The notes under the pieces were generated by a model. That model was not told the DNA's origin. It searched no databases and saw nothing but the letters and a program-made list of their open reading frames with translations. The translations under genes and the position numbers were made by a program. Shown here piece by piece: positions 38,998-59,948 of a stretch of 64,000 nucleotides of DNA. Every line of letters starts with the position of its first letter. Position 1 is the stretch's first letter. Source of the stretch: Maribacter orientalis (GTDB lineage Bacteria > Bacteroidota > Bacteroidia > Flavobacteriales > Flavobacteriaceae); contig NZ_FNZN01000001.1 in the NCBI RefSeq assembly GCF_900109345.1, positions 689,883 to 753,882 on the forward strand, written 5' to 3'.

Positions 38998-39323
38998 ATT
39001 GATTATTTTATGAAATAAAAATAAAATAATTTTTAATGTGATTCTAGTGAATATGCTTTTAATTTGATGTGAGGATGATATAAAGATTAATAATCGTTAA
39101 TTAAAAGTACCGCGGGCTACCTTTAAATATCAAAGTACTCATGATTTCAATTTGAGGCATTTTTTTTGTCTTACAATCGTTTTTAATTATCCTGTGGATG
39201 AATAAAAAGGTTGGTGAAAAAGAAGGGATGAACTAATAGTTTATAGGAGCTCATAAATATTCTATTTTACATAATATAAATTATAGAACATTAATAGTGA
39301 ATTAACGAATAGCGCATTTTCGT

Positions 39324-39499
39324 GCTATTTTACATAGTTACTTTATAAACCCTGTAAGAGGATTATAACAAAGTAATTATGTAAAAGTTAATTTACGTCT
39401 CACATATACTATAGTCATTAAAATACCGCCGCATCATCTCGGCAACAAACAAAATCAGCCACTGGCTAATCTTATTTGTCACGGGTTATGTAAAATAGC
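39324..39499. repeat. 176 bp segment bounded by perfect 13 bp inverted repeats
   Basis: GCTATTTTACATA at 39324-39336 is the exact reverse complement of TATGTAAAATAGC at 39487-39499. A further direct CTATTTTACATA lies at 39262-39273. The upstream words CGAATAGCGCATTTTCGTGC resemble the downstream end of the repeat copy near 52240-52280, so this belongs to the same repeat complex. Confidence 0.55.
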
Positions 39500-39780
39500 C
39501 GCTACCAAGCGCTCGATTGTTTTATAAAATCAAATTGCTTCGCAGCCGCATCAACTCGCACGAAAAATCAAAAGTCTACTAGACTTTCAATTTCACGTCG
39601 TATTTTAAACACAATTATCCAACGCTTGCCAACGCCAAAATAAAAGCTAACCTTTTTACACTCATTAAAAATCGAGTATTCGACAAAATGTACGTAATAA
39701 AAAATTTTAAGCGATTCTCGTAAACTTGCCACAAGAGCATAAATTTTAAGAAAAATAAAATTCTATGCACTTGTTATATA
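39431..39780 (+). repeat. Structured intergenic repeat, copy 1 (mixed type)
   Basis: It contains a palindrome AGCC-ACT-GGCT at 39457-39467 inside longer A/T-rich arms, and the hairpin AAAGTCT-ACT-AGACTTT at 39571-39587 that matches the position and TCT/AGA core of hairpins in the other copies. GCGCTCGATTG, CCAACGCTTGCCAACGCCAAAA and AAATAAAATTC...GCACTTG are shared with the copy at 47.7 kb. It lies 3' of the CHAT gene. Confidence 0.6.
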
Positions 39781-39818
39781 TAGAACTTCTATTAATCTTT
39801 TTTTTCGAGTTTCATTAT

Positions 39819-39857
39819 CTTTTGTCTTGAAACAAAAGAAACAAAAATTCAAGGCTG
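39819..39857 (+). repeat. Dispersed inverted-repeat motif of Bacteroidota type
   Basis: CTTTTGTCTTG-AAA-CAAAAG with a second ACAAAA and the tail TTCAAGGCTG forms a small imperfect palindrome. Sequences of this form recur in intergenic regions of many Bacteroidota genomes as I recall; only one copy is seen here. Confidence 0.4.
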
Positions 39858-40062
39858 CATATAATTTTGGAAACAATTAACGGCTCATTCGCTATATTTT
39901 AGGAAACATTGGAACTCGTTAACATTGTTTTGAAATCTTTTGAACAATTTAAACTCTTAAGAAACAGTATTACTAAATCCCTAAAATATGGACGCTCCTC
40001 TCCCCTATTGTTTTACCAAAATTCTCTTAGGCCAGAAACCCTTGTTTTTATTGAAAATTCGT

Positions 40063-58140: not shown

Positions 58141-58640
58141 CTAATGCTGGCCTATGTTCATATCTAAAAGTCCGAAATCCTCGATTGCAAAGTCAAAAAA
58201 TTTATTAGGGTCTACCCTATAATATGAGTTGGAAATTTGATTAAGAGGGTCATTGGCAGAAGTTCCATTATCTACCATTGCCGTAACTGCATAAGATCCA
58301 GCCAGATTAGCTCCATTCGTAGAGCCTTTTGTGACAATAACACCAATAATTTCGGTATTTCCATCAACAGTCATGCAATCTATAAACATATGAATACCTA
58401 CTGTATCGTCATTGAATTTATCAACCCATTGCCCCATAACAGTTCCATCTGTTTTCATCTTAACGACCAATGAAAAACTTTTGCCACAACCTAAGTTCAA
58501 GTCCAAGAGTAACACATGCGTCGTTACTTCCAATAGATGCATGATGAATGATACTCTTACTAGCTACTTTTAAATTAGTGCCAAATAAATCAGGGAGCAA
58601 AACTATACCATAGGGAACTAAATTTTCTCTCCTATATAAT
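58141..58640 (-). pseudogene. Probable frameshifted gene: small barrel-like secreted protein remnant
   Basis: The intact frame at 58141-58542 gives 133 residues, and from GCGKSFSLVVKMKTDGTVMGQWVDKFND to VDNGTSANDPLNQISNSY it looks like a conserved secreted-domain C-terminus. The upstream part is in another frame: the minus-strand frame reaching about 58640 reads HHASIGSNDACVTLGLEL before breaking near 58500. A one-base shift near 58490-58505 would join the two. No signal peptide was found. A real short gene is the alternative. Confidence 0.45.
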
Positions 58641-58722
58641 CACTAATTTGTGTTATCCTGTTTTAGTTTACATATTTCTATTCGTCTCGTAGTATACAAT
58701 AAAATATACCGTCATTCATTCG

Positions 58723-58730
58723 TAACTTTG
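58723..58730 (+). promoter_or_regulatory. -7 promoter box before the thiamine-phosphate-synthase-like gene
   Basis: TAACTTTG fully matches TAnnTTTG, 40 bp before the ATG. No distinct -33 element is visible. Confidence 0.45.
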
Positions 58731-58770
58731 CCAACCTGATTGAGCAACATTTACATCTAAAAACAAAGAC

Positions 58771-59415
58771 ATGATAATTCCTAAGCTACATTATACACCC
58801 CAAGGAAACTCACCAAAAGAGGTTTTGGGAAATATACAAAAGGCGTGTACTTCTGGTATTGAATTAGTGCAATTAGGTTTAAATAATGTTTCAGAAAAAA
58901 AGTTTTTAAAGATAGCTGAAGAGGCTAGAGAAATCACTTCTCATTTTCAAACAAGATTAATCATTGACCATCAGTATAAGATTGCTAAAGCCGTTAAAGC
59001 GGATGGCGTAGTATTAGATAAAACAGCCATTTGCCCTACTAAAGCGCGAAAATTTCTATACTCTTGGCAAATAATCGGTGGTACAGCAAATACCTTACAA
59101 GAGGCAGAAACACTAGTTACTAAAGAAGTTGATTATATTATGTTAGGTCCCTTTAGAACAACTACAAACAATGATAACTCAAATACCGCCTTAGGTTTAA
59201 ATGGGTATAAGTTACTAGTTGAAGCTCTAAAGACCCAAATGCCCATTATTGCTTTTGGAGGCATCACCACTGCAGATGTTACTGCGCTATTAGAAATGGG
59301 TGTTTCTGGTATTGCTGTTTCGGAAGAAATTAATCGCGATTTTGAGAATATAAAAGTATTTAACCAATTATTAAACGCCTCTTCAACACAAGAACAACGG
59401 CATACTTTTGAATAA
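58771..59415 (+). CDS. Thiamine phosphate synthase-like protein (ThiE/TenI superfamily)
   Basis: The 214-residue TIM-barrel protein contains RLIIDHQYKIAKAVKADGVVLDK, EVDYIMLGPFRTTTNN and PIIAFGGITTADVTALLEMGVSGIAVSEEI, the ThiE/TenI diphosphate-binding and product-loop pattern. ThiE joins the pyrimidine and thiazole moieties of thiamine. The QRH.. / HGxHLGQ-type motif of true ThiE is not fully kept, so the TenI-like alternative stays open. It is the only plus-strand gene between 39 and 62 kb. Confidence 0.8.
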   Translation: MIIPKLHYTPQGNSPKEVLGNIQKACTSGIELVQLGLNNVSEKKFLKIAEEAREITSHFQTRLIIDHQYKIAKAVKADGVVLDKTAICPTKARKFLYSWQIIGGTANTLQEAETLVTKEVDYIMLGPFRTTTNNDNSNTALGLNGYKLLVEALKTQMPIIAFGGITTADVTALLEMGVSGIAVSEEINRDFENIKVFNQLLNASSTQEQRHTFE

Positions 59416-59948
59416 AACAACTACTGTAATTTAAAAGAATGCTAATAAAGATTTCTTTATATCCATCTCATTTCACACAAATAAATAGCCTGTAATTGTA
59501 TAGTAAAGAATTCATGCACTTCTACTAAAATTGGGGATCACTCCCCTACTCTCGATAGCTCTCGGGCTTAGGTCGCATAATACCTGTTTATAAATAGCTT
59601 GTCTTTTATTTTATAAAGGTATTTATGCATCTCTAAATAAGATGTGGCATAGGCCTCATTTCATTCTTCGATGTCATTACCTTTTGAGGTGCGATAAAAA
59701 GTGATTACGCGGTGGGCAATTACTTTTTTCGGTGAGATGCAGCGATAGAAAAGAAAGTGAGGCGCCAATTTCTCCACCGCATCAACGGGCATAAAATTAA
59801 GAGGTCTTCTAGACCTCTTAATTTTATGCCGTAAATCAAAATAGCAATACGTTATACGTTTTTGAAATGGTTACACTCTTTTTTTGTATTACACACCAAG
59901 CTTTCCAAAAGAAAGCCATATGCAATAGCCTTCCTAAACGGTGATCTG
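59416..59948. repeat. Intergenic region with structured repeat copy 7 (about 59530-59861)
   Basis: It carries GTCGCATAATACCTGTTTATA with TATAAAGGTATTTATG, the GTGATTACGC hairpin at 59696-59730, and the best hairpin of the family: arms at 59788-59807 and 59811-59830 form a perfect 20 bp stem (GGCATAAAATTAAGAGG...) around TCT. CATTCTTCGATGTCATTACCTTTTGAG is shared with copies 2, 4 and 5. It is 3' of the beta-propeller gene. Confidence 0.7.

Follow-up and report, generated by a model that had tools for sequence, protein, structure and literature searches.

How did a row of unrelated accessory genes, set apart by related hairpin-rich repeats, come together at one place in the genome of Maribacter orientalis? 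The question is raised by a 64-kb stretch of this genome, which is called the window here and to which the coordinates below refer unless another genome is named. A preliminary description had reported related repeats in plus orientation at seven places (~39.4, 44.6, 47.7, 50.9, 51.9, 54.1, and 59.5 kb) and had likened the arrangement to a cassette array. The array probably consists of tandem, integrase-free cassettes that were inserted at dif, the site of chromosome dimer resolution, by the host recombinases XerC and XerD and were then reshuffled between repeats.

Repeat modules and their distribution

The presence of related repeats at the seven places was confirmed by BLAST and by folding. 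The strongest BLAST match between two window copies had an E-value of 4e-40, and the folding of two copies, on both strands, gave z-scores of -3.4 to -6.0. The repeats do not make up a single family as originally proposed, because profiles built from relatives separate them into two types of modules. One type (D) is a leader that precedes gene blocks, and the other (A-B-C) is a trailer that follows them. D modules were found at 44.6, 50.9, 51.9, and 54.1 kb, with a divergent copy at 59.5 kb. The trailer is present as A-B-C at 39.5-40.0 kb and only as B and C at 47.7 kb. A DNA search of the own genome with the 59.5-kb copy as a query, a search that the preliminary description had recommended, gave seven matches, every one within the window.

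When the 44.6-kb copy served as a query, 21 of 40 genomes matched, its own included, all from the same genus. A general D model matched 30 of 36 Maribacter genomes, the own genome again included. Applied over the order, the D model matched 24 of 294 genomes, all of the same family and from 17 of 80 genera. In the GTDB genome collection, at least 116 stretches contained the exact pattern of the D end. Among the 80 D-end matches listed, 31 flavobacterial genus names appeared in the titles and 78 loci carried module matches; the two loci that did not (L093 and L102) look like chance.

The modules of an array share one direction. Module matches (E < 1e-4) were collected from 24 fetched regions of relatives with at least two such matches, and none of the 173 modules opposed the majority strand of its own region. 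The modules cluster at a single locus in one orientation rather than lying at random positions or in both orientations. The genes follow this direction less strictly. Within the arrays of these regions, 245 genes lay on the same strand and 94 on the opposite strand, compared to 291 and 254 outside of the arrays. Thus, the same-strand bias noted in the preliminary description is real, but it is weaker than was claimed, and the window itself has an opposite gene at 58771-59415.

A dif-like site at the end of the array

What marks the place at which the modules cluster? The distal (low-coordinate) end of the array is formed by a dif-like site on the minus strand (39264-39291; ATGTTCTATAA TTTATA TTATGTAAAAT, 11+6+11 layout), where the core pattern has its sole match in the own genome. 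The 22-bp anchor core, (C/T)ATAATTTATATTATGT(A/C)AAAT, gives an 11-6-11 layout together with the XerC-side arm, and we take this anchor to resemble E. coli dif. An 11-6-11 layout of dif is given in PMC5357621. The anchor core was found at up to two mismatches in 34 of 36 Maribacter genomes, and it was a single copy at up to one mismatch in 32 of them; G006 and G017 each have one core at two mismatches. Both Maribacter genomes without the core are incomplete (64% and 92%).

Evidence that the anchor lies at the terminus comes from the guanine-cytosine skew at 4-fold-degenerate sites, for which plus and minus genes were taken separately. In the chromosome of G001, the skew switches at 1.82-2.0 Mb and at 4.07-4.20 Mb, and the anchor is located at 4.139 of 4.271 Mb. 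In G348, the skew switches at 1.12-1.3 Mb and the anchor is located at 1.055 Mb; the opposite switch occurs at 3.7-4.0 Mb and not at the antipode (3.447 Mb). Because the anchor is near the terminus skew switch in these two complete chromosomes, composition supports a terminus dif, and the anchor site is presumably a working dif. The dnaA gene was dropped as an origin marker; gene-strand skew places the array near the terminus, and dnaA is near it too. Both G001 (C1, dnaA at 25 bp) and G348 (C1, dnaA at 917302) have dnaA near the terminus and not at the skew-implied origin.

D also has a preferred position relative to the dif-like core. Outside Maribacter, the dif-like core was sought at up to one mismatch in 40 genomes chosen for having D (G305, with a weak D match, was left out). 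D was found on the XerC side of dif, on the same strand and within 80 kb, in 39 of these 40 genomes. The closest D was at a median distance of 6.4 kb and a maximum of 21.7 kb, with G041 counted across its contig end as circular. Counted as single matches, 90 of 110 D modules were found on this side and strand at distances of up to 80 kb, and none in this range was on the wrong side or strand. Likewise, within Maribacter, D was on the XerC side and on the same strand in 27 of 30 D-bearing genomes and for 75 of 85 D pieces.

The array of Maribacter lies between a DUF6642 gene and an FKBP-type isomerase gene. The gap between them ranges from 1.4 kb (G342) to 50 kb (G017) where both are on one contig. 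The contents between these conserved flank genes differ almost completely among the nine Maribacter genomes compared, and the repeats do not stand between the same genes in all relatives. Additional D copies past the DUF6642 gene were found in G000 and G015. The window D copies past this gene are taken as older because their cores are degenerate.

Junctions between cassettes

In its consensus, D starts (TTGTACTATAATGTTCTGCGTTATGTAAC) with two dif-like arms, that of XerC first and that of XerD second, on either side of a 9-bp centre. At the end of the C consensus (TTTTACATAACGGCAAATTATAGATACAAAT), the same type of core is found in inverted orientation with a 7-bp centre. Because D starts and trailer tails carry mutually inverted cores, the junctions between two cassettes, as well as the junction between the last cassette and dif, are palindromes of two inverted dif-like cores. 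The two sides of a junction co-vary. Inner hairpin arms complement the arm of their own junction more fully than arms assigned by shuffling (mean run 5.21 versus 3.99, 0 of 2000 shuffles, 34 distinct junctions with kinship uncorrected). End-to-end pairing of at least 12 bases was obtained for 36 of 51 junction segments and a z-score below -2 for 35 of 51, with some segments counted twice. Folding four junctions with a tool gave z-scores below -3.6 for three of them. In the window's own junction segment, the hairpin stands next to dif as a pair of its own. The loops measure 44-48 nucleotides in 22 of 34 junctions (range 12-109), and the junctions display an attC-like architecture (R''-L''-loop-L'-R'). 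The consensus of the attC boxes is RYYYAAC / GTTRRRY, and the junction boxes, ACATAAC / GTTATGT, are one position off on each side. Another very conserved stretch is the gene-proximal end of D (GGAGGGAAGTGTAATGTGTGTGGAATGG), which is remote from the recombination core.

A model for cassette insertion at dif

The preliminary description had advised looking for a recombinase next to a copy. None was found beside a copy; instead, the array adjoins a dif-like site and its junctions are dif-like. This arrangement points to host XerC and XerD. The own genome encodes an XerD that scores above the family cut-off (337 bits) and an XerC-like protein that scores 292 bits, below its cut-off of 335. A phmmer search with four tyrosine recombinases of the own genome found none in 394 open reading frames within arrays; serine recombinases had no separate search. 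Weaker tyrosine-recombinase matches were located outside of the arrays in G017 and G102. The cargo, tallied with Pfam on 250 array proteins of at least 170 amino acids (the first 125 for defence), includes regulators, hydrolases, dehydrogenases, restriction genes, and other candidate defence genes. No recombinase or phage family is among the 25 commonest Pfam families in these tallies, in which rarer families are unlisted.

How would such an array grow? A cassette would open with a D leader whose dif-like core points in the direction of dif, followed by one to several unrelated genes, and would end with an A-B-C trailer plus a variable tail, which contains a dif-like core in inverted orientation. 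At the XerC arm of dif, XerC and XerD of the host would attach the cassette, in circular or folded form. The XerC arm already present would be left on the proximal side, and the cassette would bring a new one. Because of this new arm, a working dif would be rebuilt at the distal end, open to the next cassette. Recombination among the similar repeats could then swap gene blocks between leaders and trailers. Xer-mediated insertion would explain the single place, the single orientation, the tandem growth, and the lack of a recombinase. The observed features of these loci are their anatomy, their placement and direction with respect to dif, the co-variation of the hairpin arms, and the sharing of blocks across genera; XerC and XerD as the enzymes, a folded single-stranded substrate, excision, and cassette travel are presumed from them.

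Some dif sites may show the state before insertion. Of 35 dif sites, four (G342, G012, G014, and G009) have a conserved inverted partner (TCGCTATTTKATATAACGNC...) at a distance of 14-16 bp before dif. G342 lacks D at the dif locus, and G009 (85% complete) lacks any D. The same partner also precedes nine of 79 D starts, by 7-9 bp, among them the outermost D in 6 of 34 regions (G008, G018, G019, G121, G297, and G311). The arm TGAATCATAA occurs at three of the four partner-bearing dif sites and at no other dif site, while the arms TGTACTATAA or TGTTCTATAA, which are common at D starts, occur at 26 of 35. The pattern is consistent with insertions in which the partner stays proximal and is split from dif, in a minority of arrays only. 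Alternatively, the partner may be another type of cassette tail.

Gene blocks shared between genera

Blocks next to D are shared between arrays of different genera. G001 and G297 share a block at 96% over 3566 bp, and G297 shares blocks with G341 (92% over 6755 bp) and G311 (91% over 6993 bp). Similarity drops upstream at the core in G001/G297 and G004/G341. The cassette-array interpretation of the preliminary description therefore holds, given that contents differ among the nine Maribacter genomes and that blocks common to several genera occur in different arrays. A vehicle was sought in viral contigs, where the D-end pattern had no exact match, and in plasmid and phage collections, where one D copy had no match.

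Observations that weigh against insertion at dif

A number of observations weigh against the insertion of cassettes at dif by XerC and XerD. No excised circle was seen, nor a pair of strains that differ by one cassette. The centres of the D core (9 bp) and the inverted core (~7 bp) differ from the 6 bp of dif, the 44.6-kb copy is the only D in the window with an intact core, and the fourth junction folded with the tool had a z-score of -0.9. As for the terminus, a finer sample of G001 at 4.09 Mb had a slight skew of the opposite sign, and the skew of G121 was noisy and agreed only loosely. As for location, 20 of 110 D matches outside Maribacter lie away from dif, and 10 of 85 Maribacter D pieces lie off the dif contig, all on other contigs of draft genomes (G018, G345, G342, and G013). 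Among the 40 genomes outside Maribacter, G047 is the exception: its D is found only far from the matched core, which may not be dif in that genome. In G001, genes lie between the A and B modules of a trailer (C1:4126150-4128837) and indicate that A can be separated from B-C.

The partner is also met where a simple insertion would not place it. In G012 and G014, the partner and dif are still together despite D modules 10-12 kb upstream. The partner precedes three inner D modules (G006, G121, and G311), and 28 of 34 outermost D modules have no partner. TGTAC or TGTTC arms also occur in genomes without detected D (G005, G009, G020, and G021).

The shared blocks add a further difficulty. Similarity between G297 and G311 continues ~80 bp upstream of the core. 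Blocks that are 94-98% identical begin right after D, but the bordering D copies are only 87-90% identical. Among all D pairs, which have a median of 82%, these values rank at the 88th-95th percentile. The A copies at shared blocks are 83% identical, or at the 64th-68th percentile (median 81%), and the values of both D and A fall inside the range of unrelated pairs. This gap in identity between the blocks and their D and A modules suggests that cassettes did not simply move from core to core. Rapid evolution of D is not a simple explanation, because a D-related copy inherited in place in G000 and G015 remained 90-100% identical in 50-bp windows. Identity climbs within D towards the gene. Recombination between repeats presumably forms a second layer on top of insertion.

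Alternative explanations

Could recombination between repeats account for everything? It is conceivable that the terminus is only a hotspot that gathers foreign DNA, that the repeats are spreading hairpins or terminators, and that homologous recombination swaps the blocks. The hairpins are similar to strong terminators, a split native site could be traced in few arrays, and the block boundaries fall at D and A ends with D and A themselves exchanged and identity rising inside D towards the gene, all of which speaks for a hotspot. However, a hotspot leaves unexplained why dif-like cores stand at cassette ends, why D keeps to one side and strand relative to dif, and why junction arms co-vary, and this explanation appears unlikely. 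Structured RNAs or regulatory elements that take no part in DNA movement could likewise place strong hairpins beside genes and a very conserved D end just before them, but the contents of the locus turn over and the repeats are tied to dif. Rfam gave no match at gathering cut-offs, and at E-values up to 0.5 the one match was Trp_leader (E 0.22). A role confined to RNA or regulation can hardly be the case. A spreading transposon was also set aside, on the basis of copies at one locus in one orientation and, in part, of the absence of recombinases from the 25 commonest cargo families.

The attC-like architecture of the junctions raises another alternative, namely an integron-like system whose junction palindromes act as attC sites and are served in trans by IntI-like recombinases of 375-380 amino acids. 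The own genome encodes two such proteins, which reach 206-211 bits when scanned whole with the integron-integrase model TIGR02249 and lie beside short genes with hairpin-rich spacers. Both fall under the 265-bit cut-off, above which the own genome has no TIGR02249 match, and the DNA surrounding their genes contained no match to D, A, B, or C. At E <= 1e-80, members of the IntI-like family were found in 22 of 36 Maribacter genomes, and a match is absent in 12 genomes that carry D (G002, G003, G004, G007, G012, G019, G023, G340, G344, G345, G347, and G348), 11 of which are at least 97% complete. Furthermore, recombinases acting in trans would leave the location at dif unexplained. Such a system appears quite improbable, and insertion by host XerC and XerD followed by reshuffling remains the preferred explanation.

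Comparison with integrons and Xer-exploiting elements

Integron arrays, superintegrons, and clusters of attC sites lacking integrases (CALINs) consist of tandem, mostly same-strand cassettes with palindromic sites between them, and their contents turn over among relatives. The array described here is alike in each of these respects. It differs from integrons in that the array has no integrase, the platform is dif, the leaders and trailers are long and conserved, and a cassette can hold several genes. Because the integrase by which integrons are recognized is missing, the array is classed as a variant of Xer-exploiting modules. The best reading is that the system functions like an integron but is closer to Xer-exploiting elements and dif modules.

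In the pdif or dif modules of Acinetobacter, which are known in chromosome and plasmid forms, genes are likewise bounded by inversely oriented Xer sites and modules stand in a row (PMC12907356, PMC6449649). Inverse dif-like sites flank genes here as in those modules, and several window cores are degenerate. The Acinetobacter modules have 28-bp sites with 6-bp centres, are found at a distance from the main dif, and are shared with plasmids, whereas the array here is located at the main dif-like site, belongs to a different phylum, and has ~170-bp leaders and longer trailers. The 28-bp, 11-6-11 layout of pdif modules is found here only in the terminal dif. According to PMC12907356, the main dif is considered not to contribute to the formation of modules, whereas in the arrays here it seems to do so.

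CTXphi attP and the integrative mobile elements exploiting Xer (IMEX), as described in PMC5357621, are similar to the array in their insertion at dif, their reliance on host XerC and XerD, and the hairpin that their two inverted dif-like sites form. CTXphi has 90 nucleotides between attP1 and attP2 (PMC5357621), longer than the 44-48 nucleotides common here. Unlike CTXphi-type elements, the arrays are long and carry varied cellular genes, with no phage family among the 25 commonest. PhiCjT23-like single-stranded DNA prophages at Flavobacterium dif, for which Xer-dependent dif insertion is proposed, come from a related genus; as described in PMC9719478, they are single prophages with capsid and replication genes, unlike the cassette arrays here.

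It is quite possible, though advanced here as a tentative proposal, that the whole family captures genes by way of dimer resolution, with dif as the acceptor, XerC/XerD as the integrase, and folded pairs of inverted dif-like cores as the cassette sites. If so, many marine flavobacteria would hold an integron-like gene store at their dimer-resolution site without an integrase of its own. Xer modules would then form arrays at the main dif, something that is regarded as excluded for Acinetobacter (PMC12907356). IMEX have been proposed as a possible ancestor of integron cassettes, and a capture system of this kind would be a modern equivalent of the Xer-plus-IMEX state (PMC4792948), making the origin of integrons from Xer-exploiting elements directly testable. 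The D leader would also serve as a simple marker for mobile accessory genes, including candidate anti-phage genes, throughout the Flavobacteriaceae. No description of dif-anchored cassette arrays in this family was recognised in the open-access literature searched.

Gene blocks of the window

All features of this section lie on the minus strand. The FKBP-type isomerase gene (38235-38711) is the conserved flank past dif. On the XerC side of dif follows an inverted pair of dif-like cores that forms a hairpin (39322-39386; the DNA fold of 39258-39392 has a z-score of -3.7). The first trailer (39482-40033), identified by profile matches to C (39482-39642), B (39688-39775), and A (39818-40033), is directly past the stop codon of a 1456-amino-acid cassette gene (40063-44433) without a Pfam or NCBIfam match. 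Next is the 44.6-kb D leader, a profile match at 44550-44845 with the core TTCTATAATGTTCCGCGTTATG. Its neighbours are cassette genes (44884-47473) for an ATP-grasp protein (44884-46020) and for proteins of 375 and 114 amino acids without an assigned family. The partial trailer (47661-47874), again found by profile, consists of C (47661-47768) and B (47813-47874), and cassette genes for an amidohydrolase and an esterase lie at 48049-50393.

Profiles also placed the remaining D leaders: the 50.9-kb copy (50873-51136) is without an XerC arm, the 51.9-kb copy (51938-52230) has a partly degenerate core, and the 54.1-kb copy (54048-54333) has a degenerate core. The DUF6642 gene (51268-51867), conserved in Maribacter as a marker of the hotspot's proximal side, lies between the first two, and a gene with a DUF748 match under the family cut-off (52368-54008) is flanked by the last two. 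The most divergent D-related repeat (59545-59877) was recognized by BLAST and by a five-copy profile built partly from it; a later D profile missed it.

Other elements near dif and integron-like loci

A motif like the inverted pair at 39322-39386 is also present in G004, G008, G011, and G343. More small palindromes of inverted dif-like cores adjoin dif on its XerC side, some in G340, G005, G010, G023, and G347 and others in G000, G004, G008, G011, and G343; they are possibly scars of other Xer-exploiting elements. A variant of the dif-like core occurs as direct pairs 6-7 kb apart (G325 C9:14065/21235, G098 C15:1856/8605, and G056 C121:33636/39972), which would fit an integrated element of this size, such as a small prophage. 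In G102, an array away from dif ends in a poorer dif-like sequence with four mismatches, and a second off-dif locus is a single unit of D, a 1030-amino-acid gene, and partial A, B, and C. The two IntI-like tyrosine recombinase genes of the own genome are located near contig ends (C8:175983-177125, L076, and C11:927-2054, L077). The short genes that they adjoin have hairpin-rich, attC-like spacers of another kind, and the two loci possibly represent a separate type of Bacteroidota integron.

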